Part shown: piece by piece, positions 9,077-37,320 of the stretch | Position numbering within the stretch: position 1 is the first letter of the stretch | How the letters are laid out: each line of letters starts with the position of its first letter | IMG/VR virus record: IMGVR_UViG_3300028558_000046 | Location: 1-42,070 of that record | Origin: a virus | Strand: one strand, 5' to 3' | Length of the DNA stretch: 42,070 bases | Notes under the pieces: generated by a model | Seen by the model: only the letters and a program-made list of their open reading frames with translations | Databases searched by the model: none | What the model was told of the DNA's origin: nothing | Position numbers and translations under genes: made by a program

Positions 9077-9949
9077 TTAGGAGTCCAGTCGTCGCTCGAG
9101 CCCGTACTTCTCGAGCATTTCTTTTGGTACTCGGCACGCAGGAGAGTCCAAATGCGGCCCGGCCTCTCGAGACCAATGACCGAATTTCTTGTAGCTGGTC
9201 AAAACGGCATCCCAATTCAGCCCTTCCGGCGCATCTGAAAAAGCTGCCGCGGCGTAATCGTGGAACCGCTGCTGGTTTAGCCAAGTGATCGCCTGCGGGA
9301 TGAATTTGCTTCCGATATTGCCTCGAGCTCCCTCCTCTCGAGCAAGGGCCGCCGCAGCAGATATCATCACCTCGGGGTCAACCCCGGTTTTCACCAAGGC
9401 GTTGAACTTCTTTTCGGCTGGCTGCCAAGGGTTCGCGCCATCGCGTCGGGGAAAGGCTGCCTTGAACCTCTTGAAATCCTCACTCGCTCGAGCCTGCGGC
9501 TTCGCAGGCGTCGGAATGCTTTCTTTTCCCTTCGGCTCCTTTTCCCCTCCCTTCCCCTCCAGGGCGATCTTTGGCAATTCCTCGCTAGGAATAGCTAGGG
9601 CTTTCGGTTGATCGCTAGGAGGAGCGGGGCAAACCTTATATTTGCTAGGATTATCAATCTTTTGGTGCTTTGCCCAACCTGTTATCTCAAAGAACTCTTT
9701 CCCTTCCACGGAATAGAATCTGATGAGCCCAATAGACCGGAGCTCCTCGAGCATGGCTTGGATATCATCCCCCGTGAAATTGTCCGCCGGCATAACCTGG
9801 GCTTTGATGGTGCGCGGAGCGATCGGGGCTCGCCCAAAGTCATCAACGAAATTCCACAGTCCGATGAAAAGCAGGCGCGTCACCGGCCCGCAGTCCATGA
9901 CCTGCTCACTTGTCCAAAATTCGGGTTTAATAGTGCGGATGCGGGCCAT
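9077..9949 (-). CDS. Replication initiator / replisome organiser protein
   Basis: The 290-residue protein begins MARIRTIKPEFWTSEQVM, the hallmark of phage replication proteins with an N-terminal winged helix. RLLFIGLWNFVDDFGRAP and the second half of the fold (MLEELRSIGLIRFYSVEG, then FFEITGWAKHQKIDNPSKY) follow. The middle is a Pro/Lys-rich linker. The C-terminus (residues 175-285) is helical and would recruit helicase or loader. I place the start at the ATG overlapping the stop of the preceding gene, not 45 bases upstream. The gene contains a putative origin (iterons) and seven of nine clustered CTCGAG sites, as lambda ori lies inside gene O. Confidence 0.82.
   Translation of the reverse strand: MARIRTIKPEFWTSEQVMDCGPVTRLLFIGLWNFVDDFGRAPIAPRTIKAQVMPADNFTGDDIQAMLEELRSIGLIRFYSVEGKEFFEITGWAKHQKIDNPSKYKVCPAPPSDQPKALAIPSEELPKIALEGKGGEKEPKGKESIPTPAKPQARASEDFKRFKAAFPRRDGANPWQPAEKKFNALVKTGVDPEVMISAAAALAREEGARGNIGSKFIPQAITWLNQQRFHDYAAAAFSDAPEGLNWDAVLTSYKKFGHWSREAGPHLDSPACRVPKEMLEKYGLERRLDS
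9540..9665. other. Putative replication origin: iterons, purine tract and AT-rich stretch
   Basis: Four GCTAGG(A/G) repeats start at 9584, 9594, 9614 and 9654, giving spacings of 10, 20 and 40 bases, so all face the same side of the helix. Next to them (about 9540-9562) is an almost pure pyrimidine strand, GGAGGGGAAGGGAGGGG on the other strand. The last iteron lies in AT-rich DNA. The block is inside the linker-coding part of the initiator gene, the arrangement of lambdoid origins. CTAG is a rare tetranucleotide in bacterial DNA, which makes four in 76 bases notable. Confidence 0.55.
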
Positions 9950-10137
9950 TATTCGCCTCGAGCCTTTCTGGCGGAGGCCATGATTTGCTGACAAATCCGT
10001 TCAGCATCGCGCTCGTGAATCATCACGCGCAGATAGGTTTCTTTGGCCGCTTCGGTCCATTCTTGGCAAAGCACGATATGGCCGCAGCCCCCGACAAACA
10101 CATCGGGGGGCATTACCTCAAAGGTTTTCAGGCTCAT
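9949..10137 (-). CDS. Hypothetical 62-residue protein
   Basis: The protein begins SLKTFEVMPPDVFVGGCGHIVLCQEW, with a short GCGHIVLC segment whose two Cys and one His could bind metal weakly. It ends in a basic ARKARGE tail. Its stop overlaps the start of the initiator gene, and its own start overlaps the stop of the GapR-like gene, so the three are one translational block. One CTCGAG site overlaps its last codons. The function is unknown. Confidence 0.65.
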   Translation of the reverse strand: MSLKTFEVMPPDVFVGGCGHIVLCQEWTEAAKETYLRVMIHERDAERICQQIMASARKARGE

Positions 10138-10382
10138 TAGTCGATCCCCAGCGTACCGCGATAGAGATCAATCATGGCCTCTCGAGATCGGCGCTTCTCC
10201 GCATCCTCGCGCTGCGCCCTGATGATCGCCCGCAAGGCGGGGATGTCGAAACCGTCAGATTTTGCTTCCGTGAACACATCCCGGATGTCGCCGGAAACCT
10301 CGTCCCGGTCGTCCATCAGCTTATTGATGCGCTCGACGATGCTTTTAAGCTGCTGGTTGCTGTTGTGGCCCGGCTCTGTCAT
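10137..10382 (-). CDS. gapR: GapR-like nucleoid-associated protein (DUF2312)
   Basis: The 81-residue protein matches the DUF2312/GapR family over its length. It has IVERINKLMDDRDEVSGDIRDVFTEAKSDGFD, then IPALRAIIRAQREDAEKR and a C-terminal helix IDLYRGTLG. In Caulobacter GapR forms tetramers that clamp overtwisted DNA ahead of replication forks and stimulates topoisomerases. A phage copy directly upstream of the initiator suggests support of phage replication or replacement of the host protein on phage DNA. The start overlaps the end of the nuclease gene by 38 bases. One CTCGAG site lies in its 3' part. Confidence 0.9.
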   Translation of the reverse strand: MTEPGHNSNQQLKSIVERINKLMDDRDEVSGDIRDVFTEAKSDGFDIPALRAIIRAQREDAEKRRSREAMIDLYRGTLGID

Positions 10383-11110: not shown

Positions 11111-11628
11111 GCGGTCCTCGCAAATTCGCCGAAATACTTGATCGCAGCGCAAGCGTAAGCATCATGGGCTTCTTCTGCGGTGTGGAAGTAGCCAAGGAAG
11201 ATCACGTTATCGCCGACCTTGATCTGCGTTCGCCATTTCTTGCCTTTGTGGCAAGCGTGGTAGTATGCGCCCTTGAGACCGGAACGATTGTTTGATTGAA
11301 CTTTCTTGTTCTGTTTTTGCTGGGAAGAGGTCGCTAGGCGTAAATTGCTGATCGCATTGTTTGAAGGATTGCCGTCGATATGGTCGATCTCGGCTCCGCC
11401 AATGGTCGGACCATAAATATAAATCCATGCCAATCGATGCGCGCCCATCTGATTAAACGGGCTTACCCCAATGAAAATGTAGCCGTTGCGTTTAGTCCCG
11501 GCGATATCGCCCGCCTTCATCCGGCCGCCAGTCGAACTCGGTTTTTTCCAACGGAAAATCCCGGTGACTTGATCGTAATCAAGCCACTCCCGAAGATGGG
11601 CTTGCGTGGGAAGCTTATTAGCGGTCAT
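11107..11628 (-). CDS. HNH homing endonuclease with AP2 DNA-binding domain
   Basis: The 173-residue protein has a short N-terminal recognition part (LREWLDYDQVTGIFRWKK). An HNH_3 nuclease core follows (AHRLAWIYIYG, EIDHIDGNPSNNAISNLRLAT) and then a C-terminal AP2-type domain (LKGAYYHACHKGKKWRTQI to HDAYACAAIKYFGEFA). Free-standing enzymes of this type cut an allele lacking them and spread by repair. It sits between DnaA-IV and the small basic protein, overlapping both, so its insertion does not break the operon. A paralogue lies in the tail region. Confidence 0.9.
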   Translation of the reverse strand: MTANKLPTQAHLREWLDYDQVTGIFRWKKPSSTGGRMKAGDIAGTKRNGYIFIGVSPFNQMGAHRLAWIYIYGPTIGGAEIDHIDGNPSNNAISNLRLATSSQQKQNKKVQSNNRSGLKGAYYHACHKGKKWRTQIKVGDNVIFLGYFHTAEEAHDAYACAAIKYFGEFARTA

Positions 11629-12223
11629 TGAGTATCTCCCGCTTTATCTCCTCGATGCTTTCAGCCAGCCCTTCTTGCCCGGCAGCGAGACGGGAATTTA
11701 TTCGCCGTATCGATGCGATTATAGTCGAGTGGTCTCGATCCATTCGCCGGCCGATTTCCGGCAGCGACCTCGTTGTCAATTCCTTGCAGAGATAAGCGGC
11801 GAGTTGGCGTGGCCGCACGACATCCTTATCGCGCCGCGGTGAAAGGATATCGTTCCGGGAGATGCCGTAATGATATGCGACGGCTTTGATGACATCTTCG
11901 ACCTGGATGGTGCGATGGGAGGCAGGTCCAAGATCCTTCTCGACACCAAACCACGGCGCCTTTTTGATCGGGATCGCCTTCTGCCGTTCCGCCCATGCCT
12001 TGATCGGGTCTGGCTTGCTGACCTGGACAGGCTCGTTGATCTCGACCGGCTCCGGTTCGATCGGAACAATCTCGACCGGCTCCGGTTCTTTCCCCTGCAT
12101 GAGTTCCGCGTGATGTTTCCTTAGCAGCGAAAGAAGCTGTGCCGATCCGTTCTTAGCTTTCTCGCAATAAAACCTGTCCTCATCCACTGCTGCGTGGTGA
12201 GGCTTGTCTAGCATATCAAGCAT
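11618..12223 (-). CDS. DnaA domain IV protein (DnaA-box binding, no ATPase)
   Basis: The 201-residue protein lacks the AAA+ ATPase and keeps only the DnaA C-terminal DNA-binding domain at residues 105-175. The order is TIQVEDVIKAVAYHYGIS, then VVRPRQLAAYLCKELT, then SLPEIGRRMDRDHSTIIASI. DHSTI at residues 165-169 matches the DnaA signature DHTTV. Residues 48-70 are a Pro/Glu/Val repeat linker, and residues 1-40 a separate helical part. It could compete with host DnaA for DnaA boxes, repress host initiation, or mark a phage origin. It lies early in the leftward replication operon. Confidence 0.9.
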   Translation of the reverse strand: MLDMLDKPHHAAVDEDRFYCEKAKNGSAQLLSLLRKHHAELMQGKEPEPVEIVPIEPEPVEINEPVQVSKPDPIKAWAERQKAIPIKKAPWFGVEKDLGPASHRTIQVEDVIKAVAYHYGISRNDILSPRRDKDVVRPRQLAAYLCKELTTRSLPEIGRRMDRDHSTIIASIRRINSRLAAGQEGLAESIEEIKREILNDR

Positions 12224-19780: not shown

Positions 19781-19981
19781 ATGAATAATAAAGAACTTAT
19801 CCAGTTCGCAGAGTACTACCTCGCGAACAATGCGGCCGAGAGCGGAACCGATGAGCTTATCAGAATGCTTGTGGCTGCTCTTAGGAAGCGGAATTTGACT
19901 GACATTCATACTCCGTTCCTAAAGCAGCCCGCGTGGTGCGGACACTGCGGAGGGACATGCCAATGCGGGGAGTACGAATGA
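19781..19981 (+). CDS. Small protein with C-terminal Cys cluster
   Basis: A 66-residue protein, helical at first (NNKELIQFAEYYLANNAAES), ending in WCGHCGGTCQCGEYE, where four Cys and one His could hold one zinc. GTG at 19772 is an alternative start. ATGA overlap with the methyltransferase gene suggests coupled translation. Confidence 0.6.
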   Translation: MNNKELIQFAEYYLANNAAESGTDELIRMLVAALRKRNLTDIHTPFLKQPAWCGHCGGTCQCGEYE

Positions 19982-20685
19982 CCCGCAAAGAGACCTTGGC
20001 GGAAGGCGTGACGCTATATCTGGGCGATTGCCGGGAGATATTGCCGACGCTTGGCAAGGTGGATGCTATTATTAGTGACCCTCCCTATGGCATTAAACAC
20101 AACGGTACGCGTAGCCCAAAAAGCAGCATCAGTTCAACTGGAAGGCGCCAGTCTAAGATTTCGATTGTCGGAGATAATGATCCATTCGATCCAGCTCCAT
20201 TCTTGGAGTCATCTTCTGTTGCCTGCTTTACAGGTGCCCAGCATTTTGCAGAACGCTTGCCGGGTGGCACCTATCACGTTTGGAATAAACGCGGTCCCTA
20301 TGACCCTTTGCACCAGTCGGATGGTGACTTGATATGGATCAGCGGAGAAAAGAGGGCCTTGCGAATAGTGGACTTGGTATGGCGCGGGATATGCCGCACT
20401 ACTGAGAATGCGGACCAAATAGTCCATCCGACCCAAAAGCCTGTAGCCCTTATGGACTGGTGTATTAGATGGATCGGCCCCAAGGCAATCGCGATTGTTG
20501 ATCCCTTCATGGGGAGCGGGACAACCGGCGTTGCTGCCGTCAAGCTCTCCCGTAAGTTTATCGGGATTGAGATTAGCCCGGCTTATTTCGACATCGCCTG
20601 CAAGCGCATCCAAGCCGCGCTAGACGCGCCTGACATGTTCATTGAGACACCCAAATCCGCGAAGCAGGAGGCTTTCGAACTATGA
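19978..20685 (+). CDS. DNA methyltransferase, N6-adenine/N4-cytosine class (beta order)
   Basis: The 235-residue enzyme carries the catalytic motif SDPPYG (Asp34-Pro-Pro-Tyr37) before the cofactor motif DPFMGSGTTGVAAV near the C-terminus. This order is that of beta-class enzymes such as CcrM. HPTQKPVALMDWCI and FIGIEISPAYFDIACKRI complete the family signature. It uses S-adenosylmethionine to methylate adenine N6 or cytosine N4. No restriction gene is adjacent, so it is an orphan, probably protecting phage DNA or altering regulation. The CcrM-type C-terminal domain is absent. Confidence 0.92.
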   Translation: MTRKETLAEGVTLYLGDCREILPTLGKVDAIISDPPYGIKHNGTRSPKSSISSTGRRQSKISIVGDNDPFDPAPFLESSSVACFTGAQHFAERLPGGTYHVWNKRGPYDPLHQSDGDLIWISGEKRALRIVDLVWRGICRTTENADQIVHPTQKPVALMDWCIRWIGPKAIAIVDPFMGSGTTGVAAVKLSRKFIGIEISPAYFDIACKRIQAALDAPDMFIETPKSAKQEAFEL

Positions 20686-20870: not shown

Positions 20871-21040
20871 CTCTTAAAGAAAAAGCAAAAGCTTATCGAA
20901 AGTTAGCGAAAAACCGCGCAGAGCTGGCATCCAGGTATGCAAAGGCAAAACAATATGAGAGAGCCGCGAGGTGGTATATGGCCGCAGATAATTTCATGAG
21001 GATTGCTGCTGAATTTTCCAGCCCGCGCCGTCATCGGTAG
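20867..21040 (+). CDS. Small basic helical protein (57 residues)
   Basis: MTLKEKAKAYRKLAKNRAEL followed by ASRYAKAKQYERAARWYMAA forms one long basic amphipathic helix with a TPR-like look. ATGA overlap fixes the start. The function is unknown. Confidence 0.6.
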   Translation: MTLKEKAKAYRKLAKNRAELASRYAKAKQYERAARWYMAADNFMRIAAEFSSPRRHR

Positions 21041-21050
21041 ACAAGACCCC

Positions 21051-21647
21051 ATGACAATCGGGCTATTCGGAAAGCAAGAGCGAACACCAAGCATCGGTAA
21101 TCACGAGCGCTCGCTCGCGGCTGGTTCCGATGAATGGATAACCCCAAAATGGATCGTGGACGACCTCGGCCCGTTCGATTTGGATCCATGCGCCGCCGTT
21201 GTTATGCCGTGGAGGACCGCAGATAGATCCTTTACCGAGATAGACAATGGCCTTTTTCAAAGATGGGAGGGGTTCGTTTGGATGAACCCTCCCTATGGGA
21301 CAGCAACCAGCGAATGGCTAGGCCGGATGGCAGAGCACAACAACGGTATAGCCCTCATATTTGCCCGCACGGAGACGGAGATGTTTTTTAAGTATGTTTG
21401 GGGTAGGGCTGCCGCCCTCCTTTTCCTGAAAGGACGTGTTCACTTCCACCGCCGCGACGGCGCTATCCCATCTTCAAAAGGTAAGGCCGGTAGCGGAGGA
21501 CCAGGGGCGCCATCTGTCCTAGTAGCCTATGGTGACATCGCAAGATCGCGTCTTGAGCGTCTGAGCGGCAAGGGATCATTTGTAACCGCTTGGGCTACTT
21601 CGGCGTCTCAGGCCCAACGCGATAGCAATCCGTCAGTCAAACCGTAG
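21051..21647 (+). CDS. Dam-family phage DNA N6-adenine methyltransferase
   Basis: The 198-residue protein matches the phage Dam family (PF05869 type): SDEWITPKWIVDDLGPFDLDPCAA for cofactor binding and FVWMNPPYG as the catalytic NPPY motif. LIFARTETEMFFKYVWGRAA and LFLKGRVHFHRRDG follow, then PSVLVAYG. It methylates adenine. I chose the internal Met (MTIGLFGKQE) because the longer frame overlaps the previous gene. It is the second methyltransferase of this operon and has no partner nuclease. Confidence 0.9.
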   Translation: MTIGLFGKQERTPSIGNHERSLAAGSDEWITPKWIVDDLGPFDLDPCAAVVMPWRTADRSFTEIDNGLFQRWEGFVWMNPPYGTATSEWLGRMAEHNNGIALIFARTETEMFFKYVWGRAAALLFLKGRVHFHRRDGAIPSSKGKAGSGGPGAPSVLVAYGDIARSRLERLSGKGSFVTAWATSASQAQRDSNPSVKP

Positions 21648-34392: not shown

Positions 34393-35421
34393 TCAGAGTT
34401 TGATATACATGGTGATGAGCATCATGGGCGGCAGGTTCACAAACGGCGTGCTCGTGCCGCCTTGCGCGACGCCCGTGATGGAGCCAGAAACCACAACTTG
34501 GTTGAGCGTGGTATTTGCAGCGTCACTGGTTGCCCCGGCCGATCCACCTGCGGTGGTAACGCCGACGATATTGACCCCGCTGCCGGTTTGGGCTGAAACC
34601 ACGTTGCGGGCTGTCGAGCCGCTGAACGTTCCACTCGGCGTATATGCCGGAAGGTTGCCAGTGACGAGCGTCGAGCTTTCGGAGCCGCTTGATGATCCGA
34701 GTGTTGTTGCGCCAGACCCGAAATAGCTGCTTGTTAATCGGCTGGCGGCAGAATTGCCCATATCATCGAGGCCAGCCATAACGCGACCGCGCATATCAGG
34801 CAGAGTAATCGTTTTGTTCGCCGCCCAATCCGCGGCGGCAGAAACGCCCCTGCCCGTCGAGACAGCGAGGTTTGCATCGGCGCCCCAGAGGTACAGGAAC
34901 AAGGCTTGGGTATCGGAATTGGCCCGCTCGGTTGCGCCCGAAGTTGCCGAGCCGATTGTGCGCCCATTGGCGCGAACAAAGCCGGACAGAACGCCAGTGC
35001 CATAGGTGATCTTCATGTCACCTGTGGCGAGGATCGTGGTAGCGTCTACGGTCCCGCCCCCTCCACCACCCGAAGAAGCTCCGACAACGAGCAAATTATC
35101 TTGGACGATTTGTGTGACGCCATTCACGTCTGTAAGACGGATTTTGATATTTCCATCAGCGCAGAACAGTTGCGGTATCCGGCCTGCCGCATCCAATGTG
35201 ATCGGGTTAGGCCACGGAATGGATAGAGCCGTATCTTGGTAACAATTTTGCGGTGTGCTGGTCGTGCCCGCCTGGATCAGATAGAGAAATCCGCCCGCCA
35301 GCGGCTTCGCGTACTTATCAAGTTGCTGCGTCATGCTAATTCCGGGTATAGTTCCGGCTGCAAAAGCCTGTGCAGATAGCACAAAGAGCGCCGCGAGGGC
35401 GACGGTAAGACGTTTGAGCAT
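34393..35421 (-). CDS. Tail collar-domain fibre with an N-terminal signal-like segment
   Basis: The 342-residue protein opens with a Sec-type signal (KRLTVALAALFVLSAQAFA, cleavage near residue 21), unusual for a virion protein. Then come LAGGFLYLIQAGTTSTPQNC and ALSIPWPNPITLDAAGRIPQ, a phage fibre N-domain, a Gly linker and a collar domain (YGTGVLSGFVRANGRTIGSA, WAANKTITLPDMRGRVMAGL, DDMG). The collar fold and N-domain are common in fibres of rhizobial phages, as I recall. The segment could also be a hydrophobic attachment peptide. Confidence 0.8.
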   Translation of the reverse strand: MLKRLTVALAALFVLSAQAFAAGTIPGISMTQQLDKYAKPLAGGFLYLIQAGTTSTPQNCYQDTALSIPWPNPITLDAAGRIPQLFCADGNIKIRLTDVNGVTQIVQDNLLVVGASSGGGGGGTVDATTILATGDMKITYGTGVLSGFVRANGRTIGSATSGATERANSDTQALFLYLWGADANLAVSTGRGVSAAADWAANKTITLPDMRGRVMAGLDDMGNSAASRLTSSYFGSGATTLGSSSGSESSTLVTGNLPAYTPSGTFSGSTARNVVSAQTGSGVNIVGVTTAGGSAGATSDAANTTLNQVVVSGSITGVAQGGTSTPFVNLPPMMLITMYIKL

Positions 35422-35432
35422 GAGAGGCCCTA

Positions 35433-35762
35433 ATGCTTTGGAAGCTGTTTCAGTTGTCGGTAGCTTTGGCGCTCATCGCTGGCGGCGCGTTGCTTTTGAT
35501 TGCGTGGGAGCATCCGATTTCGATCATCTGGACGGCCCCTTCAGAGATATTCTGGTCAACCAACGTTCGCAGCCACGAAGGCGGCGGCCTCTACTGGTGG
35601 ATAGGGCCGATGCTTATTGCGGCTGGAGCGCTGTGGATTGCTGAGGACTGGTTTGGTCTTGGCCGATATTCTTCAAAAGATTCCGCGTCGCCATCCGGAA
35701 AGAGGCCAATCTTGCCGGCGTATGACCATGATCAGCCAAAACGGCCGCCCTCGTCCACTTAG
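35433..35762 (+). CDS. Plus-strand membrane protein inside the late leftward region (moron candidate)
   Basis: A 109-residue protein with two strong membrane segments (LFQLSVALALIAGGALLLIA and LYWWIGPMLIAAGALWIAED), an aromatic loop between them and a polar, Pro-rich tail. It is on the opposite strand to all neighbours and fills the only gap there, overlapping the end of an ejection-protein gene by 149 bases. A GAGAGG ribosome site precedes its ATG. Lone opposite-strand membrane genes in late regions are often expressed from the prophage, for exclusion or surface change. No family match. Confidence 0.6.
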   Translation: MLWKLFQLSVALALIAGGALLLIAWEHPISIIWTAPSEIFWSTNVRSHEGGGLYWWIGPMLIAAGALWIAEDWFGLGRYSSKDSASPSGKRPILPAYDHDQPKRPPSST

Positions 35763-37320
35763 CGATCGTTGACGCGCCTGCGGGCTTCGCTAGATGTCTG
35801 GCAAACATCATGCCCGTTCCAGCGGCACCGATTCCCTTGATCAATAAGGATACATCGCCATAAGTCAGGGCTCCGGCTGCGGCTGCACCGCTGGCAATTA
35901 GTTTTCCCCACGCCGCAGCGCCCGCCGTGTTCGATGTGTTTGCAAACTTGTCGGCGTCCTTTAGATGGCGGCCGAGCGCTGCAATACTGTCGAGCGAAGC
36001 CTTATGTTCGGGCGAAAACAGCACGGACTTGGCACGATCTCCAAGCCCCTCCCATTTCGTCGCGAACTGATTGAGGCTGAATTTCCCGGTTGATTGGTTG
36101 TGGCCTAGTTCGGAAAGAGCTGTCCCGGCAATCTGCTGAAAATCTTCTGGCGGCATGGATTGGCGAAGTTGAGCAAGAAGCCTCACATTCCCCGTTTTGT
36201 CTTGAGCGGCTTTCGTCAGAGATCCGATAAGACTTTCATCCGAATTGATTCCGGACAGCTTTTGCAGTGTCTTGTTGAACTCAATTATTGGCGCAGCCGT
36301 TGCGTTCGCGTCCTTCAGGGCTTGAACAGCTTCTGGCGGCGCAACACCTTCCTTCGCGCTCTGAGCGGCGACGCCTTCCATGTCGCGGGACATCGCCCCA
36401 TATACGCGCTTCAGATCCCCAGCATTGAAGCCGGGATTTGCCGCACCGAAATTCAGCGTATTGCCGACATCCGATCTCGCGCGCTGAAGCCCGTCAAATG
36501 TCGCGCCTTGATCGACAAGATTATGAATATCTTCAAGTCCAGCCTTCGGGTTGGTTTGGCCTGCGGCTGTACGTTCTGCAACAATCTGTTTTAGAACCTT
36601 CTCCGTCGTGGGTAGTTCCGCAGTTCCAGACTGATCAAGCATGTTGCGCAGAGACGAAAAGGCGTCATCAATGCGTGAATTGTTGCTCTCGATCACTCCT
36701 TTAATCGATGGTCGTAACATGGCGCCGGTTGAAGCTCGGTCAACCACGCCACCCGATAAATCGTCGGCAATATCTCCGACCTTGTTGCCTGCCGCACTGA
36801 CCGTGCGCGCCGCCCGTTCGCCAATCTTCGGGCCGACCAAGGGAAGTTGTTGGGCTGCCTTTGTCGCCGCCTGCATCCCCTTGTTTTCTGTAGCGAGACC
36901 TATTGGCAAAGGCGCACCCAAGTCTTGGGCAGTCTGAGCTGCTGTTATGCTAGGGGAAACTTCGGCTGTGCGGGGAGCAAGCGCAACGCCTGCGACGCCT
37001 TCGCCACCACGAAGCGCCGCGCTTCCGGGCGTCAAATAGAGTGCCGCGCCCCGAGCGCGGTCTAGTTCCTCTGGACTACCGGCCTGCACCTTGCCACTGT
37101 AGACATCGCCCGGCAGGGTAAGGGCATCGACGGCGCCCTTGGCGAGTTGGCCCCAGGAAGTCTCCCCAAGCTTATCCATAAACGATTTAGGCGCAGGCGT
37201 CGCGTCAGTAGGCGCGCTTTGTCCCTCCATGACAAAACCATCCGGCAACGCCGATGCAGACGGGGCAGACTGTTCGAGCACAAAACCGTCCGGCAAATCG
37301 CTCACGCCGTTGGGTTCCAT
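35614..37320 (-). CDS. Putative DNA ejection (internal virion) protein
   Basis: The 568-residue protein has two N-terminal copies of a LPDGFV motif (SDLPDGFVLEQSAPS, SALPDGFVMEGQSAP), which occurs in ejected phage proteins, then a long helical body. Near the C-terminus are two hydrophobic stretches (LIASGAAAAGALTYGDVSLL, IKGIGAAGTGMMFARHLAKP) that could insert in the host membrane. Position after the 547-residue gene matches the P22 gp7-gp20-gp16 series. It would be packaged in the head and injected ahead of DNA. It overlaps the upstream gene by 19 bases. Confidence 0.75.
   Translation of the reverse strand: MEPNGVSDLPDGFVLEQSAPSASALPDGFVMEGQSAPTDATPAPKSFMDKLGETSWGQLAKGAVDALTLPGDVYSGKVQAGSPEELDRARGAALYLTPGSAALRGGEGVAGVALAPRTAEVSPSITAAQTAQDLGAPLPIGLATENKGMQAATKAAQQLPLVGPKIGERAARTVSAAGNKVGDIADDLSGGVVDRASTGAMLRPSIKGVIESNNSRIDDAFSSLRNMLDQSGTAELPTTEKVLKQIVAERTAAGQTNPKAGLEDIHNLVDQGATFDGLQRARSDVGNTLNFGAANPGFNAGDLKRVYGAMSRDMEGVAAQSAKEGVAPPEAVQALKDANATAAPIIEFNKTLQKLSGINSDESLIGSLTKAAQDKTGNVRLLAQLRQSMPPEDFQQIAGTALSELGHNQSTGKFSLNQFATKWEGLGDRAKSVLFSPEHKASLDSIAALGRHLKDADKFANTSNTAGAAAWGKLIASGAAAAGALTYGDVSLLIKGIGAAGTGMMFARHLAKPAGASTIAKWTRAAVLADHGHTPARLASFRMATRNLLKNIGQDQTSPQQSTALQPQ

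Follow-up and report, generated by a model that had tools for sequence, protein, structure and literature searches.

All nine CTCGAG hexamers of a bacterial virus record of 42,070 bases, IMGVR_UViG_3300028558_000046, were found to be confined to positions 9095-10186, over the replication genes. This whole record is called the window below, and I read it as a temperate phage. The array is real, it exists at the level of the DNA, independently of codon usage and protein sequence, and it recurs in other phages. The best explanation may be that the replication module carries a signal array of the methylation type whose enzyme is probably encoded by the host; I give this reading a probability of roughly 0.35.

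The CTCGAG array and the genes beneath it

The nine sites start at 9095, 9110, 9166, 9322, 9337, 9487, 9746, 9957, and 10181, and an exact count over all 42,070 bases gave 0 copies outside 9095-10186. This agrees with the first-pass annotation, which had placed nine copies at about 9095-10186 and none in the other 41 kb; a check for a comparable density elsewhere in the window also came back empty. Since the mean over 100 dinucleotide-shuffled versions of the window is 13.4 copies, a total of nine is not high, and the extreme feature is the placement. CTCGAG is the most clustered of all 6-mers in the window (scan p of about 2e-12, uncorrected for about 2,000 6-mers). The number expected in the array segment is 0.46 under a first-order and 0.69 under a second-order Markov model, the former being near the earlier chance estimate of about 0.3 copies.

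As summarized in Table 1, the array covers a single minus-strand operon of the gapR-like gene, a 62-codon ORF, and rep, whose start is the ATG at 9949 within an ORF of 9077-9994. Relatives of these genes were collected by protein searches of IMG/VR, and their loci are labelled L and the fuller records G.

Table 1. Positions of the CTCGAG array and of the genes and short motifs it overlies in the window
Feature	Position	Strand	Basis
CTCGAG array, nine copies	9095..10186	palindromic, no strand	exact count and capable-position test
Replication initiator gene rep (lambda O / DnaD-like), 7 of 9 sites	9077..9949	-	phrog_2149 'replication initiation protein', 7.9e-36
62-codon ORF between rep and gapR, 1 site (9957)	9949..10137	-	homologues in L111 and L129
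gapR-like gene, 1 site (10181)	10137..10382	-	PF10073 GapR_DNA-bd, 3.5e-22
Three 14-nt repeats, TCGCTAGGAATAGC-like, in exact 30-bp steps	9582, 9612, 9642 (span 9582..9655)	.	located in the rep linker and presumed to be origin iterons
GAGCTC copy inside the array	9325..9330	.	exact count
GAGCTC copy inside the array	9740..9745	.	exact count

All nine sites are in coding frames, six as nCT CGA G and three as CTC GAG. The earlier claim that the sites occupy three genes and at least two codon phases, with the uncommon Arg codon CGA, is thus borne out, two phases being counted. The neighbouring bases vary among the nine sites so that only the hexamer is common, and the spacing is irregular, from 15 to 259. 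None of the longer repeat, conserved flanks, or regular spacing of an iteron array was found for CTCGAG. The 14-nt repeats, which lie near the array midpoint at 9640, are the likely origin iterons; an additional GCTAG is found among them at 9594. Several relatives have other tight repeats near rep, e.g., of the GCTAGC, ACGCGT, and CGTAAC types. The window has 0 copies of GAGCTC beyond the two inside the array. A search of the window for RNA families and tRNAs gave none. As a separate observation, positions 11618-12223 encode a phage protein in which a DnaA C-terminal DNA-binding domain was recognized (PF08299, 4.5e-26), and ORFs related to it lie near gapR-rep in L117, L123, and L132.

Can the encoded proteins or the codon usage explain the sites? 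When synonymous codons were permuted in the three array genes, the mean was 1.08 CTCGAG and 0 of 1000 permutations reached 9, so that the excess is 8.3-fold. Among the positions synonymously able to hold CTCGAG, 9 of 11 are filled in the three array genes, whereas none of 153 is filled in the 27 other genes that I chose as plausible; when frames of 80 aa or longer were called automatically, 9 of 10 were filled in the span and 0 of 226 beyond it. Given the proteins and the codon usage, CTCGAG is the top over-represented hexamer in the window array, in the two arrays of a relative, L008, and in L123, L117, and L132 pooled. It is second among hexamers in the array of the unrelated phage L221, and in the L185 integrase it is raised but not top-ranked (5 copies versus about 1.7 by codon permutation). 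For all of these loci, counting L123, L117, and L132 singly, 0 of 1000 permutations matched the observed number; the enrichment is weaker in the L084 array, whose count was reached by 12 of 1000.

The first-pass annotation had held that amino-acid demand cannot account for the sites, and the permutation, capable-position, and hexamer-rank tests agree. It is true that CTC GAG and GAG CTC are common codon pairs and that CTCGAG stands about 2-fold over codon permutation in some bacterial contigs, but six of the nine sites use the uncommon CGA. There is next to no chance that random occurrence, codon usage, or amino-acid demand made the array; these are ruled out by the clustering, the permutations, the capable positions, and the hexamer rank. 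The results suggest that a second DNA signal, possibly one of DNA methylation or protein binding, overlies the replication genes.

The emptiness of the remainder was analyzed separately. The 27 other genes have 288 palindromic hexamers, as against 438.6 expected by codon permutation, and seven palindromic hexamers expected there at least 5.5 times are absent, CTCGAG being one of them. Thus, an avoidance specific to CTCGAG was ruled out, since many palindromes are avoided, and the general avoidance in this phage is probably due to restriction. The array itself has 17 palindromic hexamers with CTCGAG included, versus 21.7 expected, and the others are not raised as a group. Since general avoidance accounts for the absence of CTCGAG outside the array, the array requires a cause of its own. 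The palindrome GATATC is overrepresented, with 20 copies versus 7.5 expected outside the window array and 20 versus 8.7 in the L008 record.

Recurrence in related and unrelated phages

Including the window, 29 loci were compared, all having the rep C-terminal domain and 28 also having gapR; repeats of the same contig were avoided as far as noticed, and short or weakly matching loci were left out. The gapR-to-rep span has 9 CTCGAG in the window, 14 in L008, 8 in L123, 7 in L117, 6 in L132, and 4 in L124, which is the same contig as L084. Thus, 6 of the 29 loci carry an array at the orthologous place, with 4-14 copies. CTCGAG of the ordinary kind is also present outside the arrays of L117 and L132. 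The first-pass annotation had taken free loss of the sites in relatives as a point against a signal. This is half the case: the sites recur at gapR-rep in diverged relatives, whereas the other 23 loci have 0-2 copies. A scan of genome contigs gave 4 loci, one of which, in Bradyrhizobium japonicum in8p8, has no array.

The carriers differ in the Rep N-terminal domain, and what separates gapR from rep varies among them as well, being an HNH, T5orf172, or nuclease-like ORF. On the trees of rep and of gapR, which hold 27 of the 29 loci, array presence changes 5 times on each, with a shuffled mean of 5.6. This rules out a link to the Rep or GapR lineage, and the array is, as far as these trees tell, not a clade trait. 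The intervening gene was rejected as a partner of the array, since L131, L135, L136, L126, L148, and L151 have such genes (T5orf172 or HNH, as read by eye) and no array.

It was found that 8 of the 16 site columns in gapR and the rep C-terminus are common to at least two phages, one of these eight, rep column 74, being common to a carrier and the array-free L129. When gapR and the 62-codon ORF of the window and L111 were aligned, the two had 88.4% identity over 440 columns. The gapR site lies in a 20-nt stretch with 8 differences between the two, which is the maximum, and at the site of the 62-codon ORF they differ by one synonymous base. These differences indicate local change rather than replacement of a tract, and, together with the GC content given below, they favour point-wise gain or loss under selection, drive in another host being a less likely alternative. 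A decayed former array in the array-free members was rejected: the 21 array-negative members have 84 one-mismatch words versus 80.9 expected, which is no excess. The carriers have 23 versus 37.4 expected. This depletion is probably an artefact of permuting the site codons, because the counts per member are nearly equal (about 3.8 in carriers and 4.0 in non-carriers).

The full record of L008 (G002, 49,369 bases) has 25 CTCGAG, of which 14 lie over gapR-rep, 11 at 34667-36318, and 0 elsewhere. The second array covers a tyrosine integrase gene and an MUG113-type gene, and the flanks of CTCGAG differ between the two arrays. As the segments were cut, they include 18 of the 22 GAGCTC copies of this record, and the second has one further copy a short way upstream. 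In G539, which has 26 CTCGAG in 57 kb, 8 of them fall within 1.5 kb at a related integrase, so that the integrase array is found in G539/L185 as well.

Viral contigs were also scanned for three close CTCGAG; at least 120 stretches were obtained, whose contigs are a biased sample, and 80 of them were reviewed. Capable positions were scanned in all sequences of at least 4 kb. In one unrelated phage contig (L253:4089-5421), a DnaN sliding-clamp gene has CTCGAG at 24 of its 34 capable positions, versus 17 of 144 elsewhere. In the unrelated phage L221, 44 of the 47 CTCGAG in a 14.4-kb stretch are in its first 4.2 kb (L221:68-4219), near an AAA ATPase gene. Another palindrome, GTTAAC, occurs thirteen times within 300 bp at L051:14109-14414 and 15 times in that whole locus.

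A possible methylation signal and its rivals

In the mechanism proposed here, the nine CTCGAG would be a cis-acting DNA signal on the replication module, from the gapR-like gene to the end of rep, kept by selection rather than imported. The hexamer may have been written into the coding sequence wherever the proteins permit, around the presumed iteron origin. A DNA methyltransferase specific for CTCGAG, probably that of the host, would mark the array, and whether such a dense patch is methylated, hemimethylated, or unmethylated may gate the access of the initiator or the expression of rep. Replication would thereby be timed or licensed, most likely in the manner of the GATC/Dam/SeqA cluster at oriC of E. 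coli or of the CTCGAG cluster that Nocardia has near dnaA. A wider claim is that an overlapping DNA code nearly saturates the allowed positions and provides an epigenetic or binding platform for replication and integration, repeatedly gained and lost according to host and independent of the iterons. I find this wider claim plausible, at somewhat less than even odds.

The methylation reading is consistent with the recurrence of the gapR-X-rep arrays across differing X and differing Rep N-terminal domains, and with site positions that are partly common and partly different among carriers. The array is a locally significant cluster of one methyltransferase recognition word, and this word is a bare hexamer whose flanks vary within and between arrays. 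A bare hexamer is typical of modification and restriction enzymes rather than of transcription factors. A methylation target had been among the earlier proposals, and the published clusters discussed below suit it; the GC content of the array, the local differences from L111, and the L253 array over a sliding-clamp gene also count in favour of the present reading. Against this reading, the second array of L008 is on an integrase gene and not on replication, and most of the family, 23 of 29 loci, manages without an array.

The methyltransferases adjoining XhoI homologues in sampled Alphaproteobacteria were used as tblastn queries, and no XhoI-type methyltransferase was found in the window or in the phage loci examined. 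The window encodes two DNA methyltransferases, at 19933-20685 (N6_N4_Mtase) and 21003-21647 (Dam family); homologues of the former, 45-51% identical, are found in the array-free L146, L149, and L143. A methyltransferase-like ORF lies upstream of gapR in both L008 and L123, but the two were unrelated to each other in this search and that of L008 has no Pfam match. No DNA methyltransferase motif was found in the fuller record G004. Among 198 genomes of the family of the Bradyrhizobium reference, which may not include the hosts of the array phages, one has a clear match to the XhoI-type methyltransferase and two have XhoI itself, one of them as a fragment.

If not a methyltransferase, a protein that binds DNA may read the array. 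A GapR-related binding array had been among the earlier proposals. The array does not track the GapR-like protein, and this idea is weakened, at the level of sequence comparison, since the GapR-like protein of the array-free L083/L111 is 91% identical to that of the window over residues 1-80. The earlier idea of an initiator-specific site has also lost ground, because the Rep N-terminal domains of the carriers differ and rep holds iteron-like repeats of its own. More generally, a host or phage protein, such as a silencer, a repressor inside genes, or a partition or nucleoid protein, might bind CTCGAG without any methylation across early modules that are toxic, off-target sites being removed. 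Such a binding array is a tenable though rather unlikely account, not far behind the methylation reading in probability. It would cover both arrays of L008, on the replication module and on the integrase, and would suit sites that spread module-wide over several genes; GAGCTC is enriched along with CTCGAG, filling 9 of 14 and 8 of 13 of the positions capable of it, which suggests a half-site reader. It is opposed by unconserved flanks and unfixed spacing, and neither GapR nor Rep tracks the array. Moreover, the two long array records, the window and that of L008, have in common gapR, the rep C-terminal domain, distant structural proteins, and a few short matches, and no other gene among the window ORFs of at least 60 aa. 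Import is the other kind of explanation. Segments from replicons rich in CTCGAG, and in GAGCTC as well, under a drive like that of the HIP words of cyanobacteria, may have recombined into phages that avoid palindromes. I regard this as unlikely, though hardly more so than a binding array. Among the matches listed, L278 has CTCGAG at 43% and GAGCTC at 63% of capable positions, and L244 has 36% and 47%, throughout the stretch examined and beyond codon usage; the arrays coincide with exchangeable modules, including the integrase module of G539/L185, and the HIP literature links such words to methyltransferases (PMC4390886). On the other hand, contigs of the L278/L244 type were chosen by a scan for dense CTCGAG, and their excess over codon permutation is about 2- to 3.5-fold, as against 8.3-fold in the window. 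The GC content of the window array is that of its genome (0.558 versus 0.557 in the flank); the second array of L008 is somewhat richer, at 0.605. The densest alphaproteobacterial genome sampled has 7,675 CTCGAG in 3.8 Mb, which is far from the array density, and no donor chromosome at that density was found in 119 family and 385 class genomes (Bradyrhizobium reference), which are draws from larger groups. The 91% identity of the GapR-like protein to an array-free one also speaks against import, and the genome-wide overrepresentation that defines HIP is absent, none of the 153 capable positions outside the array being filled.

A relaxed avoidance would require only that the genome was purged by an XhoI-like system and that the array segment was newly acquired and is unpurged. 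The remainder of the window does avoid palindromes, and XhoI-type enzymes are present in 5 of 385 sampled Alphaproteobacteria and in the two family genomes mentioned above. There is also the precedent of CcrI, which cuts CTCGAG in Caulobacter CB13, three Caulobacter phages being reported to have no such site (PMC11945714). But by codon permutation a missing purge predicts about 1 site in the array and not 9, the other avoided palindromes are not raised there as a group, and the array recurs in six phages. As a full account, this is very improbable and strongly disfavoured; what it might account for is the emptiness outside the array.

Should the array prove to be a platform for methylation or binding, origin control of the Dam/SeqA type would extend to a temperate phage, with another word and inside genes, and sequence alone would offer a route to phage origins and to the host factor reading them. 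It would then also show cleanly, in a natural setting, how a signal in the DNA can override the choice of codons. If instead the array was imported in the manner of HIP, tracts would be exchanged between replicons with opposite palindrome regimes.

Comparison with known systems

No description of such a phage array was found in the literature searched, which included few subscription journals. In E. coli, a GATC cluster read by Dam and SeqA controls oriC. Iterons lie inside lambda O-type initiator genes, and the array resembles them in being a DNA signal inside an initiator gene. In contrast, lambda O iterons are longer and tightly spaced with conserved flanks, whereas the CTCGAG array spans three genes and the iterons of rep are separate from it.

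Clusters of orphan-methyltransferase motifs at origins are described by Blow et al. 2016 (PMC4752239): GATC with Dam, CTCGAG in Nocardia, TTAA in Arthrobacter, and CTAG in Haloarchaea. The Nocardia cluster, between dnaA and dna polIII, has the same hexamer as the phage array and, like it, recurs at one locus in several genomes; it is dense at a replication-initiation locus, and the phage array is dense on gapR-rep, around the presumed origin. However, the Nocardia type is chromosomal and non-coding, whereas all the sites of the window array are coding; for the phage array no cognate methyltransferase was found, and L008 has its second cluster at an integrase, unlike the Nocardia type. Because of the coding sites and because no XhoI-type methyltransferase was found, the array was not filed as a member of this class, though it may well work in a similar way. 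CTCGAG methylation is reported for giant viruses in another study (PMC7253447).

The avoidance of the CcrI site resembles the window in that most of the genome has no CTCGAG, and the three Caulobacter phages of the study cited above have none either. But avoidance of this type predicts no sites anywhere, while the phage has a saturated patch. HIP1 and its alternates, as Elhai 2015 (PMC4390886) presents them, are iterated palindromes of cyanobacteria tied to methyltransferases. They are genome-wide, whereas the array occupies one segment of an otherwise CTCGAG-free phage; what the two have in common is an iterated palindrome in coding sequence, with a bare word like a recognition site.
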